Of a DNA stretch of 64,000 nucleotides, positions 12,753 to 28,246 are shown in pieces. The stretch lies in assembly GCA_016214035.1 (NCBI GenBank), contig JACRPF010000021.1, positions 62,001-126,000 on the forward strand, given 5' to 3'. The DNA is from Spirochaetota bacterium (lineage in GTDB: Bacteria; Spirochaetota; Brachyspiria; Brachyspirales; JACRPF01). A model generated the notes under the pieces. The model worked only from the letters and a program-made list of their open reading frames with translations. It made no database searches and was not told where the DNA came from. The position numbers were made by a program, and so were the translations under genes. Numbering within the stretch: position 1 is the stretch's first letter; each line of letters opens with the position of its first letter.

Positions 12753-13562
12753 TCAGTTGGTGAAAAGAATGCGGCCGCAGTTGAAACAGACGATGATCTG
12801 ATTCTGCCGCCGTACTTCGTTGACCGTCATCTTCGGTATGGTGATATGGCATGCAGAGCAGGTGCCGTTCTCGATCTTTGAAAGCGCCCTGCCGCTGTAT
12901 TTCTCTTTGATCCGCGTATAATGCTCGAATATGCTCCGGTCGATCTTCGACTCGAGCGCCTTCTTGTACATCTGATATTCGTGAATTATCGTCTCGTTCT
13001 TGCTTTTCTGTGTGGATTCCCAAAGCTCATATGCGTAGACCTGACTGTCCGCCCGCTGCAGTTCGATGAGATATTTTATCTGTCCTTCTGTCTCATATTT
13101 CGATTCAAGTTCTTTTGCCGAACCGAGCGTACGGAGAATATCGTCTGCGCCTTTCGCCACGGACAATTTCGACATGATGTCTTTCTGGCTGATAAGGAAT
13201 ATCAACTGTGAAAGTATGCTGACATATTCATCAGCATTGTCCTCATCGGCGATAAGCACGAAAATAACTTTGACCTTCTGTCCGTCAAGCGACTGAAAAT
13301 CGATTTCTTCTTTAAGAATCGCGACGAAGATTTCCGTTTCCTTTACGCCTTTGATGCGCCCGTGCGGCACCGCGATGCCGTTGCCGATGCCCGTTGACTC
13401 CTCGATTTCACGTGTCTCAAGCGCCGATAGAATCTTTTTCTTGTCACCGTCAGTGGATTCGGCGATCTTGTCACTGAGGAGCTTAAGCGCCTCGTCTTTC
13501 GTGGCAACCGCTACGTCCTCGAATATATGATTTTTTTTGATCTTGTCGATGACTTTAAGCAT
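12753..13562 (-). CDS. PTS EIIA(Ntr)-type domain fused to C4 zinc ribbon
   Basis: 269 residues. Residues 1-150 are a PtsN-like EIIA domain with the phosphorylatable H67 in GIAVPHGRI. Residues ~155-230 are a charged helical hairpin, and the end is a zinc ribbon with Cys235/238 and Cys259/262 (CSACH ... CFNCGR), very like the C-terminal ribbon of the DUF164/zf-RING_7 family. EIIA(Ntr) proteins take phosphate from EI(Ntr)-HPr homologues and regulate targets by phosphorylation state; no sugar-permease genes are nearby, so a regulatory role is likely. An upstream in-frame start exists, but AAGGAG six bases before the ATG at 13562 decides the start. It heads the minus-strand run down to the synthase gene. 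Confidence 0.85.
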   Translation of the reverse strand: MLKVIDKIKKNHIFEDVAVATKDEALKLLSDKIAESTDGDKKKILSALETREIEESTGIGNGIAVPHGRIKGVKETEIFVAILKEEIDFQSLDGQKVKVIFVLIADEDNADEYVSILSQLIFLISQKDIMSKLSVAKGADDILRTLGSAKELESKYETEGQIKYLIELQRADSQVYAYELWESTQKSKNETIIHEYQMYKKALESKIDRSIFEHYTRIKEKYSGRALSKIENGTCSACHITIPKMTVNEVRRQNQIIVCFNCGRILFTN

Positions 13563-13608
13563 GGGCGCTCCTTGTTGATGGCGGCGGCAATTGCCGGCAC
13601 GCGAAACC

Positions 13609-13636
13609 ATTGTAGCGTAACTGAAAAAAAATGCAA
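13609..13636 (-). promoter_or_regulatory. Promoter for the EIIA-zinc ribbon operon
   Basis: On the minus strand TTGCAT (13636-13631), 16 bases, TACAAT (13614-13609), about 47 bases before the ATG. Confidence 0.55.
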
Positions 13637-15790: not shown

Positions 15791-15930
15791 TATTGTCGCT
15801 CTCACGACGCATCCTGCGTCGTTGGCGCTCAGCGTAGCGCGGATGTTTACTTTCTCCCCGATATTGCAGCGCATCCGTGCGCTCATGGATGCTACAGGCT
15901 AATAATATTGGGTTGTAAGAAGTCCGCGCT
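15791..15930. repeat. Intergenic repeat R1, copy A
   Basis: It begins TATTGTCGCTCTC and ends CCGCGCT, as does the copy at 31331. Inside, GACGCA/TGCGTC pair round TCC (15806-15820), GTTGGCGCTC follows, and a larger hairpin GCATCCGTG/CATGGATGC spans 15871-15892. The end touches the stop codon of the CNNM-EIIA gene, so on the minus strand the element lies directly downstream of that gene and upstream of the M23 peptidase promoter. Confidence 0.8.
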
Positions 15931-17449
15931 ATGACATATCCGTCGTCTGCTCAACGGCGATTATCGTATCGTACAATTCTTTCGGTGAAACCGCATCGGC
16001 AAGCCTGTCCTCGAAATAGCCGCTGTCAAAGAGCTTAGCGATATGCGACAGCAGTATCTGGTGCAGCCGCGGCGCCTGCGCGGGGGTCAGAAGAATGAAG
16101 AGATAGCGTATCGTGTCCTTGCTTTTACTGGTGGGCGCCGCGATAGGCGTTTTCATCCGGGCAACGAATACGAACGCCCTCGTGATATTCTCAAGACGCG
16201 CATGCGGTATCGCCAGATGCCGTCCCACATAACTGCTGCCGAGCCGTTCGCGTTCGGCGATATGCGGCATAATCTCGGTGACCGGCAGCGGCAGCATGCC
16301 CTTGGGCAGACGGGAAAGCGCGTTGTGCGCGGCGGACGTTATCGACTGTCCTTCGACCTGCAGAAGTATCTGATCCGGTGATGACAGCGCGCCGCTTAAG
16401 CGTTCGGGCTTCTCGAGCGGATATTCCTCTTCAATCGTTCCCACTATCTCCTCGAGCACATCCTCAAGGGTGATATGTCCGGTCCACTTGTCTGATGCGT
16501 CGTAGACGGCAGCGAAATGCATCCCCCGCCGCTGCATATCGGTAAGCACCGATTCCAGCGTGTCAGTCTCGCGCACCTTCAAACAGGCGCGTACATAGCC
16601 GCAGATACCGGCTTCAACCGGAATACTGGTGCGCATGTAGAGGTCTTTTACATGGACAATGCCCACCGGACGATCATCCTCGCCAATCACCGGATACCGT
16701 GAATACCGGTACTTCGCGATGATAGCGTTAACCTCTTCCCGCGTCATCTTCGAACCGATGCTGCATGTTTTGTGACGTGATTGCATCACATTGCGGACGG
16801 TCAAACCGCCCATATCGAGGATATTTTCAATATACAGCAGTCTGCGGAACGACATGACGCCGGTGGACTGCGACTGCTCGAGAATGATGCGCACTTCGTC
16901 CTCGGAATGATCATCCGTCCGGTTCGTCGCGGGAATGCGCATCAAAAACAGCAGCGCATTCGAGACCGAGTTCAGTATCCACAACGGCACAATAAAGATA
17001 TAATAAAAAACGATTATCGGATACGCCGTGAACAGCGCCGCTTTTTCCGTCCTGCGGATAGCCATCGACTTGGGCACCAGTTCCCCGATGACGATATGCA
17101 GAAATGAGATGAACAGATACGCCACCGCCACCGAGATACCGTGCGCGGTATGCCCCGCGGCATCACCCATATGAAGCCAGGCGAGCAGCGGCTTAATGAG
17201 CCTTGCCAACGCCGGTTCGCCGACGAATCCAAGGCCGATACTCGCAAGCGTTATTCCTATCTGACACACCGAAAGAAACTGGTCCAGATGCGTCTGTATG
17301 TACTGTACCACCTTCGCCTGCCGGTTCCCCTTCTCGGCGAGTGCGTCCATTTGTGTTGGACGGGCCTTTACCGCGGCGAATTCCGCCAGAACGAAGAATG
17401 CATTCATAAGCAGAAGCAATACTGTAAGCATAAGAAATAATAAAACCAT
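15929..17449 (-). CDS. CNNM/CorC-type membrane protein fused to an EIIA domain
   Basis: 506 residues. Residues 1-185 are the CNNM (DUF21) transmembrane domain with three to four helices and the family motifs LNAFFVLAEFA-like start, QIGITLASIGLGFVGEP and GELVPKSMAIRR. Residues ~200-320 are a CBS pair (RYSRYPVIGEDDRPVGIVHVKD; FAAVYDASDKWTGHITLEDVLEEIVG). Instead of the usual CorC_HlyC domain, residues ~350-500 form a PTS EIIA-type domain with H416 in GRHLAIPHARL. CNNM proteins act in Mg2+ or other cation homeostasis; the fused EIIA suggests control by phosphorelay. AAAGGAT precedes the ATG. It lies 34 bases after rnhA on the same strand. Confidence 0.88.
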   Translation of the reverse strand: MVLLFLMLTVLLLLMNAFFVLAEFAAVKARPTQMDALAEKGNRQAKVVQYIQTHLDQFLSVCQIGITLASIGLGFVGEPALARLIKPLLAWLHMGDAAGHTAHGISVAVAYLFISFLHIVIGELVPKSMAIRRTEKAALFTAYPIIVFYYIFIVPLWILNSVSNALLFLMRIPATNRTDDHSEDEVRIILEQSQSTGVMSFRRLLYIENILDMGGLTVRNVMQSRHKTCSIGSKMTREEVNAIIAKYRYSRYPVIGEDDRPVGIVHVKDLYMRTSIPVEAGICGYVRACLKVRETDTLESVLTDMQRRGMHFAAVYDASDKWTGHITLEDVLEEIVGTIEEEYPLEKPERLSGALSSPDQILLQVEGQSITSAAHNALSRLPKGMLPLPVTEIMPHIAERERLGSSYVGRHLAIPHARLENITRAFVFVARMKTPIAAPTSKSKDTIRYLFILLTPAQAPRLHQILLSHIAKLFDSGYFEDRLADAVSPKELYDTIIAVEQTTDMS

Positions 17450-20322: not shown

Positions 20323-20350
20323 TTGACAATCCAACTGAAAAACATATAGT
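20323..20350 (+). promoter_or_regulatory. Strong sigma70-type promoter of the HTH-EIIA/hyf-like operon
   Basis: TTGACA (20323-20328), 16 bases, TATAGT (20345-20350). The predicted mRNA start is about 25 bases before the ATG at 20383. No other promoter of this quality is seen before 28.2 kb on this strand. Confidence 0.7.
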
Positions 20351-20382
20351 ACCGATATCTATCATGACCGGACGCTCTTGTT

Positions 20383-21057
20383 ATGGACTTGAAAATAAAG
20401 GATTTGGTTCGCTTTCTCAACGTCCCGGAAAGAACTGTTCTCGGCTGGATACGCGAAAAAAAGATACCGGTATACCGCATCCACCACCAATACCGCTTCG
20501 ACCGGGCGGAAATAAGCGAATGGGCGCTCGCGTCCGGCATCGCATCAACCGCGGAACTCGCCGAACTGACCAGCGGCAAAACACCCGTAGACATCGTCAA
20601 TAACATACGCGCCGGCGGCGTGTTCTATCACGTTGCCGGAACCACTGTCCATGAAGTGCTCAGGAACGCGGTCGATATCATGCCGCTGCCGCATGGAATC
20701 GATAAAGCACTCGTCGCATCGCAGCTCATTGAACGTGAAGAACTTATGCCCACCGCCGTCGGCAAGGGAATAGCCATTCCGCATCCGCGCCGTCCTGTCA
20801 TGACCGATATCGGAAACGAGCGCTGTGCCATTATATTTCCTGAACATCCTATCAATTTCAAGGCGCGCGATGGTATCGCCGTTCATGTTTTTTTTATAAC
20901 ACTTAGCGCAAATCATAACCGGCATCTTGAGATGCTGTCACGCATAGCATATCTCTGCCGGAACGAAGTGTTTGCGGGGCTTTTGAAAAACCGCGCGTCG
21001 ATGGGAACCATACTTTCCTACATCGAAACGGCGATAAAGCCTGGACGTGCCGCATGA
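20383..21057 (+). CDS. Excisionase-type HTH fused to a PTS EIIA domain; likely regulator of the hyf-like operon
   Basis: 224 residues. Residues 3-50 are a MerR/excisionase-like winged HTH (IKDLVRFLNVPERTVLGWIREKKIPVYR-type layout, then a wing with HHQYRFDRAEISEW). Residues ~75-218 are an EIIA(Ntr)-type domain with H134 in GKGIAIPHPRRPV. This joins a DNA-binding head to a phosphoacceptor, without the PRD domains of classical PTS regulators. It is the first gene after a strong promoter and its stop overlaps the next start (ATGA), so it is translationally coupled to the membrane complex. It may control its own operon or, by phosphorylation state, the complex itself; both are inference. No Shine-Dalgarno sequence is evident. 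Confidence 0.85.
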   Translation: MDLKIKDLVRFLNVPERTVLGWIREKKIPVYRIHHQYRFDRAEISEWALASGIASTAELAELTSGKTPVDIVNNIRAGGVFYHVAGTTVHEVLRNAVDIMPLPHGIDKALVASQLIEREELMPTAVGKGIAIPHPRRPVMTDIGNERCAIIFPEHPINFKARDGIAVHVFFITLSANHNRHLEMLSRIAYLCRNEVFAGLLKNRASMGTILSYIETAIKPGRAA

Positions 21058-23027
21058 TAATGCTCGCAGTCAGCATCGGCATCATCCTGTTCGGCGGGTT
21101 TATAGCACTTGCCGTTCCCGAAAAAGCCAAGCCGTATCTAAGCGCCATATGCACAACCATCGCGGCAATTCCGGCACTCATCGCCGCACTTCCTGTTCTC
21201 TTCACGCGCGATGCTCTTTCGGCAAGTATCTTACTGCCCCATCCATTCGGCAACGCTGTTTTCGTCCTCGACCCATTATCCGCATTCTTCATTCTTATTA
21301 TATCCGTCATGGGTGCACTTTCATCGATCTATGCAGTCGGTTACACGAAACCATATCGCGACGCCTCGCATAAAAGCGGCGGACACTTTTTCTTTCTGCC
21401 GCTCCTCATCGCATCGATGATGCTCGTTACTGTATCTTCGCATGTGCTGGTATTCCTCACCGCATGGGAAGTAATGACGATAGCAAGCTTTTTCGCCATC
21501 ATGTTCGAGGACAACAAGGAAAGCGTACTGAAAGCTGCGGTGCGTTATCTCATCGCCATGCATGTGGGCGTACTCCTCCTCACCGCGGCGTTCCTTCTAT
21601 CGTGGCGCTTTTCCGGAAGTCCCGACATGGCCTCGTTCGCAGCACTCCGCGGCAACGGCATCACCAATGCGCTTTTAATTCTGTTCTTCATCGGGTTCGC
21701 ATTCAAAGCGGGATTCATGCCGTTTCATACGTGGCTTCCTGAAGCGCATCCCGCGGCGCCGTCGCACGTCTCGGCGCTTATGTCCGGCGTCATGATAAAG
21801 CTCGGCATCTACGGTATGCTCCGCACACAAATGCTCTTCGGTCTTCCGCCGGTATGGTTCATCACCGCCTTCCTCATCGCCTCGCTCGTTACCGCACTCT
21901 TCGGCATACTCTATGCGATAGCACAGGGCGATGTGAAACGCTTTCTTGCGTATTCAAGCGTGGAAAACATCGGCATCATCGGCATCGGCATGGCATTCGG
22001 CATGCTCGGGATGGCGCATCAGAATATGGTGATGGCGGTTGCTGGATTCACCGGAGCGATACTGCATATACTCAACCACTCGGTGTTCAAGGAGCTCCTG
22101 TTCTTCGCGGCAGGCGCTGTCTACACGAAAACGCATACACGGAATATCGATGAACTCGGCGGACTTATCAAGACCATGCCGCTCACCGCCGTGTGTTTTC
22201 TCGCGGGCGCTCTGGCGATATCCGGCATACCGTTCTTCAACGGCTTCATCAGCGAGTTCTTCATTTACCTATCGATGCTCAGCGGAATCACCGACACAAC
22301 GGGTGTGACACCGCTCGCATATATCACCTCATTTGCACTGTTCGCCTTCATTGGAGCACTCGTCCTTGCCGGCTTCACGAGAACGTTCGGCATCATGTTC
22401 CTCGGCGAAAAGCGGAATAAACATATTCACAGCACCGAAGTATCGCCGTCGATGCTTATACCTATGTTCATCGCGGGGTCTTTCGCGCTCATCCTCGGCG
22501 TCGCGCCCGGTATTCTCAGACTGTCGACAGCTCCGGTCGAAGCGCTTGTTGGAAACTGTATAGCTCCCGTAAACGGCCTGATGCATCACACACTCACCAC
22601 GTTCATGCAGGTGTTCGCAATCATCGCAATAATATTCGCTTTACTCGCCGGTATCCGGTTTCTGCTTATGCGCGGAAAAACCGTCACGCGCGCGCCCACC
22701 TGGGGCTGCGGCTACGGTGCACCGAACGCCCGCATGCAGTACACTTCGGCATCGTATGTGTCTCCACTCGTCATGATAGTCAGAAAGCTCATCGCGTTCA
22801 CCGCACACCGGAGAAATCCGCACGGGCTCTTCCCGGCGCACGCGTCGTTCCGGGCGCACACCAAGGACATCATCGACCGGTGGACGGTACGGCCCGCCAC
22901 GTTCGCCGTACGCCGATTTCTCAGGCGCTTCACCTGGATTCAGAGCGGCAGCACACGGCAATATGTGCTCTTCGGCGTTCTGTTCCTTATCGTACTCATC
23001 TTCCTGGCGGTTGGTATACAATGGTGA
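21054..23027 (+). CDS. Hydrogenase-4 component B-like proton-translocating subunit
   Basis: 657 residues with about 15-16 membrane helices, of the NuoL/M/N-Mrp antiporter superfamily and closest in layout to HyfB/HycC. Antiporter residues are present: the Glu in LTAWEVMTIASFF, Lys in FAFKAGFMPFHTWLPEAHP, Lys in SGVMIKLGIYG and Lys in ILNHSVFKELLFFAAG. The C-terminal third carries GCGYG followed by a soluble stretch and a last helix, typical of HyfB. It should move H+ or Na+ across the inner membrane as part of the complex. Starts overlap the previous stop by four bases, and its own end overlaps the next start by seven. Confidence 0.92.
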   Translation: MIMLAVSIGIILFGGFIALAVPEKAKPYLSAICTTIAAIPALIAALPVLFTRDALSASILLPHPFGNAVFVLDPLSAFFILIISVMGALSSIYAVGYTKPYRDASHKSGGHFFFLPLLIASMMLVTVSSHVLVFLTAWEVMTIASFFAIMFEDNKESVLKAAVRYLIAMHVGVLLLTAAFLLSWRFSGSPDMASFAALRGNGITNALLILFFIGFAFKAGFMPFHTWLPEAHPAAPSHVSALMSGVMIKLGIYGMLRTQMLFGLPPVWFITAFLIASLVTALFGILYAIAQGDVKRFLAYSSVENIGIIGIGMAFGMLGMAHQNMVMAVAGFTGAILHILNHSVFKELLFFAAGAVYTKTHTRNIDELGGLIKTMPLTAVCFLAGALAISGIPFFNGFISEFFIYLSMLSGITDTTGVTPLAYITSFALFAFIGALVLAGFTRTFGIMFLGEKRNKHIHSTEVSPSMLIPMFIAGSFALILGVAPGILRLSTAPVEALVGNCIAPVNGLMHHTLTTFMQVFAIIAIIFALLAGIRFLLMRGKTVTRAPTWGCGYGAPNARMQYTSASYVSPLVMIVRKLIAFTAHRRNPHGLFPAHASFRAHTKDIIDRWTVRPATFAVRRFLRRFTWIQSGSTRQYVLFGVLFLIVLIFLAVGIQW

Positions 23028-23935
23028 GCATTCTTCTCTATATCTTCGCGCTTTCCATCGCGCCGTTCCTCTTCATGGGTATCATCATCCGCGTCAAGGC
23101 GTTCTGGGCGGGACGGAAAGGTCCGCCGCTGCTCCAGCCGCTCTATGACTTCATCAAACTCCTTCGCAAAGGTGAAGTGATAAGCGCCTCGGCGTCGTTC
23201 ATATTCACCGTTGCACCGCTTGTCTGCACATCGGCCGTTCTCGGCGCGTCGCTCCTCATCCCGTTCGCCGGACGTGCTGTCATATCACTGAACGGCGGTA
23301 TCGTTCTCTTCTGTTATCTGCTCGCGCTTTCGCGGTTTTTCCTGCTTCTGAGCGCGCTCGATGTGGCAAGCAGCTTTGAAGGCATGGGCGCAAGCCGCGA
23401 AGCGACATTCGCCGCATTCGCCGAAACGGGACTGTTCTTTCTGCTCGGCACATTTGCCGCGGCAACGGGAAACACATCGTTCACCGCAATCACCGCCGCA
23501 ATAGAGCGCAACACGACGTGGGGCATACTCATCATCTGTCTCTGGTCAATAGCGCTATTCCTGCTCATGCTGGTTGAAGGATCGCGCATGCCCGTTGACG
23601 ACCCGAACACGCATCTTGAGCTTACAATGATTCATGAGGTCATCGTCCTTGACAACAGCGGCGTGAACTTTGCGTTCATGCTGTATGCGTCACATCTGAA
23701 AGTCATATTATTCGGCTCACTCATTGCCGCACTTGTCATCCCGTCCCATCTGGCATGGTATTACTACGCCGCCGCATGGGCGCTCGTGCTTACGACTCTG
23801 GCAGTCGTCATCGGTATTTTAGAATCGATACTCGCGCGTCTGCGCATGACACTGGTGCCGCAGTTCATATTCCTCGTCACGGCAATGACTGCCATCAGCG
23901 CGCTGCTGATAGCGGTCTACAAGGGGGGCATATGA
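23021..23935 (+). CDS. Hydrogenase-4 component C-like (NuoH family) subunit
   Basis: 304 residues, about eight membrane helices, NuoH/HycD family. The signature loops are FMGIIIRVKAFWAGRKGPPLLQP (split here for reading), LDVASSFEGMGASREATFAA and VEGSRMPVDDPNTHLELTM, the last holding the acidic cluster that links the soluble arm to the pump modules. The open frame extends upstream of the ATG at 23021, but that part overlaps HyfB and has no homology; the ATG chosen gives the canonical start MVSILLYIFAL and overlaps the previous stop codon. It anchors the hydrophilic arm to the membrane. Confidence 0.93.
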   Translation: MVSILLYIFALSIAPFLFMGIIIRVKAFWAGRKGPPLLQPLYDFIKLLRKGEVISASASFIFTVAPLVCTSAVLGASLLIPFAGRAVISLNGGIVLFCYLLALSRFFLLLSALDVASSFEGMGASREATFAAFAETGLFFLLGTFAAATGNTSFTAITAAIERNTTWGILIICLWSIALFLLMLVEGSRMPVDDPNTHLELTMIHEVIVLDNSGVNFAFMLYASHLKVILFGSLIAALVIPSHLAWYYYAAAWALVLTTLAVVIGILESILARLRMTLVPQFIFLVTAMTAISALLIAVYKGGI

Positions 23936-24576
23936 TAATATCGCTTCTCGCCGTACTCTTCGGCACAACGCTTCTCTATATTGCCGTCGTCAGCCGCATC
24001 GAGGCGTACATCAAAATGACGGCGCTGCAGGGGCTGTGTCTTTTTCTCATCGCTATTACCGGCATAATCCTCGAAGGACATTTCCGTTCACTCGGCACCA
24101 TCGTCATCGCCGTTGAAACGCTCGGGCTGAAGGCGATTATCATCCCGTGGTACATGACCAAGGTCACCCGTGAGAATGACGTGCTTCGTGAAGGAGCAGC
24201 ACACGCGTCGCATCTGAGTTCGCTCATCGCGGTTGCCGTCATCCTCGCCGTAGGCATACTCCTGCCCTTCTCCGTGAAAGACCTCGGCGTCATACCGCCC
24301 CTGTTCTTCGGCATTTCGCTCGCGGCGGTGGCCACCGGGTTCTTCCTCATCATCACGCGCAAAAACCTCATGACGCATGTGGCCGGATACATGGTCATCG
24401 AGAACGGGATATTCCTGCTGTCACTCGGCGTGGCAAAGGAAATGCCCATCATGGTGAGTCTCGGCGTCTCGCTCGATATATTCCTCGGCGTATTCCTCGC
24501 CGGCATGTTCATACGCCGCATCCAGGGCACGTTCAACCGCCAGCATATCGACACGCTCACCGACCTTAAGGATTGA
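23932..24576 (+). CDS. Hydrogenase-4 component E-like (NuoK-like) subunit
   Basis: 214 residues with six to seven helices. The C-terminal half resembles NuoK/MnhC-type subunits: MVIENGIFLLSLGVAKEMP contains the conserved membrane Glu. The N-terminal half (LLYIAVVSRIEAYIKMTALQG) is typical of HyfE. The start overlaps the previous stop (ATGA), and the end overlaps the next start in the same way. It is expected to take part in ion translocation and to seat between the HyfC- and HyfF-like subunits. Confidence 0.9.
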   Translation: MIISLLAVLFGTTLLYIAVVSRIEAYIKMTALQGLCLFLIAITGIILEGHFRSLGTIVIAVETLGLKAIIIPWYMTKVTRENDVLREGAAHASHLSSLIAVAVILAVGILLPFSVKDLGVIPPLFFGISLAAVATGFFLIITRKNLMTHVAGYMVIENGIFLLSLGVAKEMPIMVSLGVSLDIFLGVFLAGMFIRRIQGTFNRQHIDTLTDLKD

Positions 24577-25985
24577 CGATGATAGCACTCCTTCTGATAA
24601 CACCCGCCGTGCTTGCGCTCATCGCGCTCGTGTTCCGTAAACGGCAGCTCAATATCATCATCCTCGTCATTGCCGCGCTGGTGCAGGTGTACGCCACCGT
24701 CATGCTCATGCTGCATCCGTCGCAGTTCACGCTCTACTTCCGCGTCGACAGTCTGAACATCTTATTCCTCGCCGTGCTGTCGCTCGTATTCCTGATGGCG
24801 GCAATCTACAGCATCGATTATCTCGAACATGCGGTCGACGACGCCCGATGGACCACATTCTACACGATATTCATGCTCCTCTTCGTCGCATCGATGAGCG
24901 GCGGGCTGCTCGCCACGCATCTGGGCGTGTTCTGGATAAGCCTGGAGGCGTCAACGATTACAAGCGCCGTACTTGTCTACTACTACCGCACACGCGCGGC
25001 ACTCGAAGCAACGTGGAAATATCTCTTCATGTGTTCCATCGGTATCGCGCTGTCGTTCATCGGCATCATCTTCATATCAGCGGGAATGTCCGGCGCGCCG
25101 TCGCTCTTCTATGACGATTTGATAAAGAACGGTCCGTCAGCATCACGTTTTTATCTGCCGCTTGCATTCGCTTTCCTCGTCGTCGGATTCGGCACCAAAA
25201 TGGGTCTCGCGCCGGTGCATAACTGGCTTCCCGACGCTCACTCCGAGGCGCCCGCCCCGGTGTCGGCCATGCTCTCGGCGACGCTCCTTAATACGGCGTT
25301 CATCGGCATCATCAGAATATACCGCATCGCCGCTGAAGCCGGATTCGTCCGCTTCGCGAACATCGTCCTGTTCTCAATGGGCCTCATGTCGCTCTTCGTG
25401 AGCGCGGTGTTCGTGCTCCGTGTAAAGAATTATAAGCGGATGCTCGCATATTCTTCCATAGAGCATATGGGAATTCTTGCCGTAGCCCTCGCTACGGGCG
25501 GCGCAGCCGTTCCCGCCATGTTCCTGCAGATGACCGGTCATTCACTCGCGAAAGCCTCGTTCTTCCTCACCTCGGGAACGATATATGACCGCTTCGGCAC
25601 GAAAAAGACGAATGAAGTGACGGCCCTCACACGCCGCGCGCCGGTTACCGGATGGCTCTGGCTCATATCCTGCGTTGCCATCTGCGCATTCCCGCCGTTC
25701 TCGCTCTTCTTCAGCGAGTTTTTTGTCCTCCAGGAACTGTTCGCGAAACACCTCGTCATCACCATCATCGTCGCTGTGCTCCTCACGATAATACTTTACG
25801 GCCTCATGTCGAAAACAGTATCGATGTCGTTCGGCCGCGCGCCTGATGACAAAACCTACCGCACGCCGGTGGTGCGCTGGCTCCCGCAGGTCATCCTGCT
25901 TGCCGCGGCACTCGTCATCGGCATCGCCATGCCGGCGTGGCTCCGCAATATATATACGGCAGCCGCGGCGTGGGTAGGACGGTAA
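24573..25985 (+). CDS. Hydrogenase-4 component F-like antiporter subunit
   Basis: 470 residues with ~14 helices, second NuoL/M/N-type subunit. Key residues: Glu in FWISLEASTITSAVL, Lys in GFGTKMGLAPVHNWLPDAHSEAP (split motif; K follows GFGT) and Lys in MTGHSLAKASFFLTSG. The order B-C-E-F is that of E. coli hyf without the HyfD pump. Two near starts exist (24573 and 24579); the first overlaps the previous stop by four bases. Two pump subunits predict a stoichiometry lower than complex I but higher than the one-pump formate hydrogenlyase-1. Confidence 0.92.
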   Translation: MTMIALLLITPAVLALIALVFRKRQLNIIILVIAALVQVYATVMLMLHPSQFTLYFRVDSLNILFLAVLSLVFLMAAIYSIDYLEHAVDDARWTTFYTIFMLLFVASMSGGLLATHLGVFWISLEASTITSAVLVYYYRTRAALEATWKYLFMCSIGIALSFIGIIFISAGMSGAPSLFYDDLIKNGPSASRFYLPLAFAFLVVGFGTKMGLAPVHNWLPDAHSEAPAPVSAMLSATLLNTAFIGIIRIYRIAAEAGFVRFANIVLFSMGLMSLFVSAVFVLRVKNYKRMLAYSSIEHMGILAVALATGGAAVPAMFLQMTGHSLAKASFFLTSGTIYDRFGTKKTNEVTALTRRAPVTGWLWLISCVAICAFPPFSLFFSEFFVLQELFAKHLVITIIVAVLLTIILYGLMSKTVSMSFGRAPDDKTYRTPVVRWLPQVILLAAALVIGIAMPAWLRNIYTAAAAWVGR

Positions 25986-25987
25986 AG

Positions 25988-27478
25988 ATGCAATTCATCA
26001 GTTTCAGAAATTTCACCGCGGTGAGCCGCAGTACCGTGCCCGTCATGCCGATGAATGAATTCTGCACCGAAATACGAACGCTCGTATCACGCGGACTTCG
26101 CGTTGTGCTCTTTTTCGGCATGCGTGAACCCGACGGCATCACCATCTATGCAGTGCTCGCCGACGATGAACGTTCGGCGCTCTATGCTGGATCATCACGC
26201 ATCACCACTGACCTGACATCCTACCCGTCGTTAACAACTGACATCCCGTCGATACACCTCTTCGAACGTGAGCTTTGGGAAGAGACCGGCATCGTTCCGG
26301 AAGGACATCCATGGCTGAAACCGGTGCGCTTCGGCCATGGCCGTCACGACTCGACAGAGCTTCATCAGTATCCGTTCTTTCATATGGAAGGAAGTGCCGT
26401 TCACGAAGTTGCGGTAGGTCCCGTACACGCCGGCGTCATTGAGCCCGGGCATTTCCGTTTCCAGTGCACGGGGGAGACCGTTCATCATCTTGAGATACAG
26501 CTCGGCTATCAGCATCGCGGCGTGGAAGAGCTGTTCTGCACAGGCGGCAGCATCCTCGGCAAAGCGGCGCTCGCCGAGTCCATCGCGGGAGACAGCGCGC
26601 TCGCACATACGCTCAGTTATGCACAGGCGGTCGAATCGCTTTGCGGCATCGAGTCACCGATACGTGCGCAATACATACGCTCGCTCTGCCTTGAGTTGGA
26701 ACGCACGGCCATTCACATCGGAACACTTTCGGCACTCGCCAACGACGTGGGCTATCTCACCGGCAACGCATTCTTCTCCGCGCGCCGTACAAGCGTCATC
26801 AACGCGCTTCTTCTGATATGCGGCAGCCGATTCGGCCGCGGGCTCATCCGTACCGGCGGCGTGCAGTTCGACATCGACAATGCCAAAGCGAAACGCATAG
26901 TGTCCATACTCGACGGTGTACTCGACGACTGCATCATGATGGGTGAAGCGATGTTCGACTCGGCAGGAGTACGTTCACGTTTCGAGAACACCGGTGTCGT
27001 TTCGCGTGATACCGCGCATGCGATAGGCCTTGTGGGTGTTGCGGCAAAAGCATCGGGATTGAAACGCGACGTCAGAAGTTCGCATCCGTCCGGCGCATAC
27101 CGGCTCACCCCGGTACATACATTCTCACTGCCCGGCGGTGATGTATTCACACGCGCATATATCCGTTTCCTTGAGATACAGCAGTCGCTCAGGTTCGTCC
27201 GTGAAACACTGCAGCACCTGCCCGGGGGCGAGCTGTCACGGCAGCCGGAACGATGTGCCGCCGACAGTTTTGCGGTATCACTTAATGAGGGGCCGCGCGG
27301 CGAGATTGCGCATGCGATTGTCACCGGCCCCAAAGGAACTGTTGTCCGCTACAAGGTGAAAGACGCATCGTTCCACAACTGGTTCGGCCTCGCCTGTGCG
27401 CTCCGCGAGGAAGGAATATCGGACTTCCCGCTCTGCAATAAAAGCTTCGATTTATCTTACGCAGGATTTGACCTTTAG
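25988..27478 (+). CDS. Hydrogenase-4 component G-like (NuoC-NuoD fusion) lacking NiFe ligands
   Basis: 496 residues. Residues 1-140 match the 30 kDa/NuoC domain (FERELWEETGIVPEGHPW); from about 155 the 49 kDa/NuoD-hydrogenase large-subunit fold follows (VHHLEIQLGYQHRGVEELF). A NiFe hydrogenase needs two CxxC pairs. Here the first is CGIE at 219-222, keeping one Cys, and the C-terminus reads FPLCNKSFDLSYAGFDL with no DPCxxC. The protein therefore cannot bind the NiFe centre in the normal way and also lacks the typical cleaved tail. It fits the energy-converting hydrogenase-related (Ehr) group. The electron acceptor or quinone site is unknown. The ATG is two bases after the previous stop. Confidence 0.9.
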   Translation: MQFISFRNFTAVSRSTVPVMPMNEFCTEIRTLVSRGLRVVLFFGMREPDGITIYAVLADDERSALYAGSSRITTDLTSYPSLTTDIPSIHLFERELWEETGIVPEGHPWLKPVRFGHGRHDSTELHQYPFFHMEGSAVHEVAVGPVHAGVIEPGHFRFQCTGETVHHLEIQLGYQHRGVEELFCTGGSILGKAALAESIAGDSALAHTLSYAQAVESLCGIESPIRAQYIRSLCLELERTAIHIGTLSALANDVGYLTGNAFFSARRTSVINALLLICGSRFGRGLIRTGGVQFDIDNAKAKRIVSILDGVLDDCIMMGEAMFDSAGVRSRFENTGVVSRDTAHAIGLVGVAAKASGLKRDVRSSHPSGAYRLTPVHTFSLPGGDVFTRAYIRFLEIQQSLRFVRETLQHLPGGELSRQPERCAADSFAVSLNEGPRGEIAHAIVTGPKGTVVRYKVKDASFHNWFGLACALREEGISDFPLCNKSFDLSYAGFDL

Positions 27479-27487
27479 GTAAACACT

Positions 27488-28246
27488 ATGCCGAATCTTA
27501 TAAACATACGGATACGACAGGGCACACAATACGTTCCCGACGTGACCAAAGCCGCCGTCAACGAGATGTTCCGCGGCTTTCCGATTGTGGACGATACGAA
27601 ATGCGACAATTGCGATGCGTGCACGAAGGTTTGTCCGTCGAACGCTATCACCGCAAAACCGCTTGCCATCGATATGGGAAAATGCGTTTTCTGCGGCGAC
27701 TGTGTCCGCGCATGCAGTCCCGGAGCGATAACGTTCACAAACAGACATCACATCGCCGCCGACGCGCGGGAAAAGCTTGTCATCAAAAACGGGATGACGC
27801 CGGAGAATTACGAAGCCGCCGCCGTGCATGTGAGCAAAGAGATTCGAAGCGTGTTCGGCAGATCACTCAAGCTCAGGTCGGTATCCGCGGGCGGCTGTAA
27901 CGCCTGTGAAATGGAATTGAACGCATCGAACAACGTGAACTTCGACATGGGGCGTTTCGGCATCGACATAGTCGCCTCACCGCGTCACGCTGACGGCATG
28001 GTAATCACCGGGCCGGTAAGCGGGAATATGGCGTACGCACTTGAAGAAACCTACCGCGCACTTCCCACACCGAAGCTGATAATCCTCTTCGGAAGCTGCG
28101 CAATTTCGGGCGGCGTATTCGCGGATTCGAAAGCGGTCAACCGCTCGTTTATCGACAGCAACACCGCACAGCTCTACGTACCCGGATGCCCCGTACATCC
28201 GCTAACATTCATCAACGGACTCCTCAGGCTTATAGGCAGAATATAA
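27488..28246 (+). CDS. Fused dicluster ferredoxin and NuoB/HyfI-like subunit
   Basis: 252 residues. Residues ~35-85 carry two 4Fe-4S motifs, CDNCDACTKVCP and CVFCGDCVRACSP, as in HyfH. Residues ~130-250 are a NuoB-like domain with all four ligands of the proximal cluster: GGCNACEME, FGSCA and PGCP. Hyf and Hyc code these as two genes (H and I); here one polypeptide does both. It would carry electrons from a soluble donor to the interface with the G-like subunit. It is the last gene of the operon and ends 11 bases before the convergent gene; no terminator hairpin is visible. Confidence 0.92.
   Translation: MPNLINIRIRQGTQYVPDVTKAAVNEMFRGFPIVDDTKCDNCDACTKVCPSNAITAKPLAIDMGKCVFCGDCVRACSPGAITFTNRHHIAADAREKLVIKNGMTPENYEAAAVHVSKEIRSVFGRSLKLRSVSAGGCNACEMELNASNNVNFDMGRFGIDIVASPRHADGMVITGPVSGNMAYALEETYRALPTPKLIILFGSCAISGGVFADSKAVNRSFIDSNTAQLYVPGCPVHPLTFINGLLRLIGRI

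Follow-up and report, generated by a model that had tools for sequence, protein, structure and literature searches.

What is the role of a protein that combines DNA-binding and phosphorelay domains and is encoded at the head of an operon for a membrane energy complex? The question is raised by a 64,000 nucleotide stretch of DNA from a Spirochaetota bacterium (GenBank assembly GCA_016214035.1, contig JACRPF010000021.1, positions 62,001–126,000; hereafter the window). A preliminary description of this stretch had reported an excisionase-type helix-turn-helix (HTH) joined to an EIIA domain with intact His134, a near-consensus promoter ahead of the first gene and a stop codon overlapping the start of a HyfB-like gene, and had proposed phosphorelay control of a hydrogenase-related complex.

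The HTH-EIIA protein and the operon that it heads

These structural elements were all recovered (Table 1), except that position 20323, the start given earlier, marks the promoter, and the gene itself begins at 20383. Pfam recognises HTH_17 at residues 3–48 (E 9.6e-10, 39 bits, cut-off 27) and PTS_EIIA_2 (PF00359) at residues 79–215 (E 4.6e-21, 75.7 bits, cut-off 27), and the excisionase-type HTH model TIGR01764 scores 29.9 against a cut-off of 28.8. His134 lies within GKGIAIPHPR, where it aligns with the histidine of the GxGxAxPH motif of PtsN, and forms the EIIA active-site pair with His181, which is also present. An AlphaFold2 model (pLDDT 90.3) has the EIIA-Ntr fold in its EIIA part (PtsN, 4gqx_A, Z 18.5, rmsd 2.2, 148 aligned). 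The promoter ends 32 bases before the ATG; the region holds five promoter-like sites against a shuffle mean of 1.4, and 24 sites of this shape with up to two mismatches occur in the genome, compared with two for the reversed pattern. At the other end of the gene, the TGA (21055–21057) shares bases with the ATG at 21054 that starts the HyfB-like gene (657 aa). A ready-made regulator family for the whole protein was sought and rejected, as NCBIfam and Pfam give domains only. The VIA-align table held no match to the HTH part and was filled by the EIIA domain, so that nothing was drawn from it, and a phmmer query with the window HTH alone returned no HTH structure.

Table 1. Positions within the window of the HTH-EIIA gene, its promoter and the Ehr genes downstream.
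Feature	Position	Strand	Basis
Sigma-70-type promoter TTGACA-16-TATAGT, heads operon	20323..20350	+	11/12 consensus positions
HTH_17–PTS EIIA-2 fusion gene	20383..21057	+	ATG start, ORF, 224 aa
EhrA/HyfB-like Mrp-antiporter-type membrane subunit, 657 aa	21054..23027	+	ATGA overlap with HTH-EIIA gene; domain matches
HyfC/NuoH-like membrane subunit	23021..23935	+	PF00146, 9.5e-31; start inferred from overlap
HyfE-like membrane subunit	23932..24576	+	NF008556, 2.9e-15
HyfF-like Mrp-antiporter-type membrane subunit	24573..25985	+	Domain matches (Pfam/NCBIfam)
HyfG/NuoCD-like large subunit, Ehr type, without nickel-binding cysteines	25982..27478	+	HycE alignment
Two-[4Fe-4S] ferredoxin fused to NuoB-like small subunit (HyfH-HyfI fusion)	27488..28246	+	Pfam

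In the large subunit, the RVCGICGF and DPCYS of HycE (7z0s_E) are replaced by SIAGDSAL and DLSYA, and alignment to HycE and MbhL shows that the CxxC nickel ligands of group 4 NiFe hydrogenases (Hyf/Hyc) are absent. Since the nickel cysteines are lost relative to HycE, we assign the complex to the Ehr type, as described in the accessible part of PMC6349859, and not to the hydrogenases. Judged from its sequence, the operon is that of an Ehr complex, in which a hydrogenase-4-like subunit set is combined with a large subunit of this kind. Four weaker matches to the large subunit, and HypD, are encoded elsewhere in the genome. The Ehr genes GSU0739-45 of Geobacter likewise encode Mrp-type, NuoH-, HyfE-, large and small subunits without nickel ligands, but the available portions of the Ehr literature (PMC6349859, PMC7894505) name no HTH-EIIA regulator alongside them; the role of Ehr in Geobacter sulfurreducens has, according to the text available from PMC7894505, never been investigated. 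Ehr complexes occur widely, with no agreed function, and are not known to have a regulator.

The genome encodes one EI, two HPr proteins and five EIIA domains, three of them inside the window. One HPr gene clusters with sigma-54 (rpoN)-, hpf-, EIIA- and HPrK-like genes, as read by eye, and no match to the sugar permease family PF02378 was found in the genome. Because EI, two HPr and this cluster are present and a PF02378 permease is not, we take the relay to be a regulatory one. The three EIIA proteins of the window lie within 8.5 kb. One is a CNNM-CBS membrane protein (CorC/PaeA-like; 15929–17449, minus strand) whose C-terminal EIIA-2 domain has retained the active-site histidine (GRHLAIPHAR), and another is an EIIA-2 protein (12753–13610, minus strand) with a C-terminal C4 zinc-ribbon-like tail and 73% identity to the sister genome (L072). 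Among the relatives, L047:10275-12386 (minus strand) encodes a SulP-STAS-EIIA fusion and L129:12412-15039 a single protein with Na_H_Exchanger and then EIIA-2 domains.

The HTH-EIIA protein shares with PtsN (EIIA-Ntr) the EIIA fold, both active-site histidines and the EI/HPr regulatory relay, whereas PtsN has no DNA-binding domain and the HTH-EIIA protein falls far below the PtsN equivalog cut-off of TIGR01419 (39.3 against 138.7 bits). Such a score would be consistent with an EIIA domain that has become a sensor no longer exchanging phosphate, binding a ligand or partner with the relay uninvolved, and so would the degenerate EIIA domains at two Ehr operons (L067:4106-4771 and L068:9647-10309), where both histidines stay and the surrounding R118, E119, T124 and G127 are lost. 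We consider this reading quite improbable: His134 is kept in all 69 rows of the family alignment, R118, E119, T124 and G127 are retained in 31/33 Ehr-linked rows, and the genome has the EI and HPr genes. His181 is present in 52/69 rows and in 30 of the 33 that are Ehr-linked. The preliminary description had left room for a histidine missing from most relatives, which is not what the alignment shows.

Neighbours of HTH-EIIA genes in other genomes

A search of 100 relatives gave at least 28 rows that match the query at near full length, and 14 of those listed (13 relative loci and the window itself) stand at an Ehr operon; at L067 and L068 the gene is not the first of its operon and follows the large and small subunit genes. 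Across 392 genomes of the phylum, HyfB lies directly downstream in each of the 25 top matches of full length (E values up to 1.2e-63), many of which come from genomes already counted among the 100 relatives. Among the matches listed for 48 Geobacteraceae genomes there are 37 full-length places, and HyfB is directly downstream in 28 of the best 30 of these 37 loci; the exceptions are L194, which has a full but divergent Ehr operon, and L177, where a different membrane protein is downstream. A scan of named genomes confirmed 530 loci, 80 of which were among the matches listed. At the 43 of these 80 that are full-length, the partner was Ehr in 19, a ClC protein in 9, an antiporter or CitMHS in 3, a contig end in 3 and none of these in 9. 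The named Ehr-linked records include Geobacter, Desulfuromonas, Omnitrophota, Goldiibacteriota, Phycisphaerales, Ignavibacteria, Gemmatimonadaceae, Lentisphaeria and Nitrospirota.

The pairing was also examined from the side of the complex. The 100 relatives contain 19 close Ehr large subunits. Upstream DNA is visible for 16 of them, the other three operons being cut by contig ends, and HTH-EIIA is found at the operon in 14 of the 16. Ehr operons that have none are L157 and L158, which are close, and the distant, Ehr-like L162 and L163. The genomes G001 and G050 carry a full large subunit and the regulator gene on different contigs. On one Lentisphaeria contig (L088), two Ehr operons lie on the same strand, and HTH-EIIA was detected at only one of them within view. 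Scattering of homologues away from hyf-like neighbours had been envisaged at the outset; the close homologues instead sit at Ehr. We conclude that HTH-EIIA is most likely a conserved, dedicated regulator of Ehr operons, and an autoregulator read by the PTS.

The two-domain build is not special to Ehr. A tree of 68 proteins clusters by partner, with 10 label changes where shuffling gives a mean of 32.1. Further partners include Na_H_Exchanger proteins (often with a second EIIA) and CitMHS, and at one locus (L160:84-1570) the stop of HTH-EIIA abuts atpB, the first gene of an F1Fo ATP-synthase operon, the atp genes being identified by eye. HTH-EIIA lies directly upstream of a ClC gene at L090, L091, L092, L095, L097, L100, L103, L119 and L123; ClC was confirmed by Pfam in 7/9, the seven that were scanned, and these seven also have CBS domains. 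Treponeme-type HTH-EIIA proteins have the same two-domain build as the window protein in the tree and alignment rows, but form a separate clade with other, unrelated neighbours, for example ksgA (KsgA) and a miaB-like gene. Chlamydia proteins annotated 'PTS IIA + HTH' are presumably of this build too. The idea that such a regulator is tied to this kind of complex thus holds for the conserved adjacency to Ehr and fails as an exclusive rule, since the build also precedes ClC, antiporter, ATP synthase and other genes.

Direct repeats and the recognition helix

GGACA repeats were first spotted by eye in the regions upstream of relatives' genes and tested afterwards. In the set of 124 distinct upstream regions, six have GGACA pairs spaced by 10 bp, six have them spaced by 20 bp, and nine have [GT]GACA pairs with the 10-bp spacing; the shuffle means at 10 bp are 0.018 (GGACA) and 0.082 ([GT]GACA), and 0/500 shuffles attain the observed count. 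A motif-free test gave the same spacing. After removal of near-copies, which reduced 125 regions to 112, 10-bp direct repeats of an exact 6-mer are present in 24/112 HTH-EIIA promoters, compared with 16/412 control promoters taken at these loci (p 3e-8); once GGACA/TGACA arrays are set aside they are still present in 15/99 (p 1.5e-4). By eye, overlap of an array with the -35 box TTGACA is frequent (L077, L081, L213, L215, L220). Geobacteraceae promoters carry 10-bp arrays in 1/18 distinct regions. The upstream regions of L180–L197, also Geobacteraceae HTH-EIIA promoters and near-copies of one promoter, contain TTAACG direct repeats 22 bp apart.

Presence of the arrays goes with the sequence of the recognition helix. 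With the strict helix pattern [ST]EK[TS][IV][YLF]R[WM], which was refined after the first list had been seen, and with arrays counted on either strand, an array is found in 15/22 regions with the pattern and 1/99 without it; with a looser pattern the figures are 12/33 and 0/82. The link includes L199, a member of the window's own clade. The five independent supported pairs of helix and array (3.1 on average in the same direction, 0 in the opposite) are too few to reach 0.05, and the link, not freed from descent, may reflect shared ancestry.

The helix arginine of the array-bearing relatives aligns with the recognition-helix arginine of RacA, which the available text of PMC5859096 equates with Arg30 of BldC, a residue whose replacement by alanine abolished DNA binding. 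BldC resembles the HTH-EIIA proteins in having a MerR-like HTH, in this arginine, equivalent via RacA, and in GGACA, which forms the core of the direct repeats in relatives' promoters and occurs twice, 9 bp apart, in the BldC crystal DNA 5'-CAATTCGGACAATTCGGACA-3' (PMC5859096, accessible portion). BldC is a 68-aa protein with 9-bp repeats and no sensor domain, whereas HTH-EIIA proteins carry an EIIA domain and the spacing in relatives is 10 bp. Taken together, the arrays and the helix suggest BldC-like autoregulation by HTH-EIIA in the relatives.

Triple arrays were searched for in 38 genomes, picked partly for holding arrays, and gave eight matches, six of them (at five loci) at HTH-EIIA promoters, with 0 for the reversed control. 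A global regulon was considered and set aside, as just two of the eight lie away from HTH-EIIA, the first inside a coding sequence that resembles a glycosidase and the second at an ORF end. It is also highly improbable that HTH-EIIA is a general regulator that stands in the operon by accident and has its targets elsewhere. The unrelated genes beside treponeme-type homologues would fit such a protein, but adjacency to Ehr in several phyla, the partner-specific clades and the near-confinement of triple arrays to HTH-EIIA promoters argue against it.

The window itself differs from these relatives. Its helix is VPERTVLGWIRE, in which Gly21 replaces the arginine of the array-bearing relatives, so that, unlike BldC, the protein has no key arginine at this site; in the 33 Ehr-linked rows the residue is arginine in 17 and other residues in 16. 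No phased repeat at 10, 20 or 30 bp is present in the 200 bp upstream of the window gene, and a genome-wide search found no triple array in the window's genome. Its sister G001 has the arginine, with no array visible by eye upstream. The helix has changed in the window's lineage, so that the operator predicted for the relatives is not assignable to the window promoter. Conservation of the HTH and EIIA parts is 58% and 58% between the window and its sister, and 50–60% and 42–48% between the window and five other close relatives. The HTH is conserved as well as the EIIA part, which argues that the domain is probably in use in the window protein.

Control of the operon or of the complex

The reading that we favour, with a probability of roughly 0.55, is that the Ehr operon is regulated by the HTH-EIIA protein at its head in response to the PTS. 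The HTH domain would bind the operon's own promoter, in the relatives probably as a head-to-tail, BldC-like array on the 10-bp direct repeats. HPr would pass phosphate to His134, paired with His181, and the phosphorylation state of EIIA would alter DNA binding or assembly, so that the PEP/phosphoryl status would set the quantity of the ion-translocating Ehr complex. Because the repeats often overlap the -35 box, the effect is predicted to be repression. The domain build, the fold, the intact active site, the EI and HPr genes, the conserved position in the operon and the helix-tracking phased repeats at relatives' promoters were all computed; DNA binding, repression, transfer of phosphate and the way in which control runs are inferred. 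Less easily reconciled with this reading are the Ehr operons that lack the gene, its mid-operon place at L067 and L068, the near-absence of 10-bp arrays from Geobacteraceae promoters and the varied residue at the helix site among Ehr-linked relatives. The phosphorelay control proposed earlier gains from the Ehr neighbours of close homologues, the invariant histidine and the relay genes, and needs amending as to the complex, which is Ehr and not a hydrogenase.

Since the window protein has glycine in place of the arginine and its promoter lacks an array, direct action on the complex is a serious rival, although we regard it as rather unlikely. EIIA would then bind an Ehr membrane subunit in a phosphorylation-dependent manner and gate ion flow, as PtsN acts on TrkA, KdpD and YcgO, with the HTH a remnant or a dimerisation part in the window's lineage. 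Binding of TrkA, YcgO and KdpD by PtsN is described in the available text of PMC13104625. The strong near-consensus promoter, the overlap of the HTH-EIIA gene with the first membrane-subunit gene and the mid-operon position at L067 and L068 are in keeping with direct action, as are the proteins in which EIIA is fused directly to an ion transporter (L047, SulP-STAS-EIIA; L129, Na_H_Exchanger-EIIA; and, in the window, CNNM-CBS-EIIA) and the resemblance of the EIIA fold to 4ky9_A, the regulatory domain that SLC4 anion exchangers have in the cytoplasm (Z 13.1, rmsd 2.8, 150 aligned). A remnant would not be expected to be conserved on a par with EIIA within the clade, as the HTH is, and the covariation of array and helix in relatives, L199 of the window's clade included, also speaks against direct action.

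In an open-access literature search we found no report of a link between HTH-EIIA and Ehr or of an operator code, and the words helix-turn-helix, hydrogenase and chloride do not occur in the available text of a 2026 review of PTS-Ntr (PMC13104625). The HTH-EIIA build is known, and the pairing with Ehr and the putative link between 10-bp repeats and helix are newly described here. A dedicated phosphorelay-linked regulator, together with a predicted operator in relatives, makes Ehr regulation testable in cultured Geobacteraceae.

HTH-EIIA probably lets the state of the phosphate relay control ion-pumping machines. PtsN is linked in the literature to K+ transport (PMC13104625, available text), and the window protein heads the operon of an ion-translocating complex; HTH-EIIA genes, unlike PtsN, stand at the operons of such machines. 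This suggests that the tie between PtsN and K+ transport may be one case of a wider connection of PTS state to ion-translocating machines. Tentatively, HTH-EIIA proteins could be a modular class of switches, gated by the phosphorelay, for Ehr, ClC, Na+/H+ antiporters and ATP synthase. Each clade would serve a single machine and bind its own promoter in the form of a BldC-like filament assembled on the 10-bp repeats; the helix-to-GGACA code would be readable, and PEP/pyruvate status would by this route tune membrane energetics across many phyla. In two treponeme-type genomes (L052:8555-10015 and L099:8429-9892), the gene for a conserved protein of about 490 aa with no Pfam match lies immediately upstream of those for an EIIA-only protein and a transketolase-like product.
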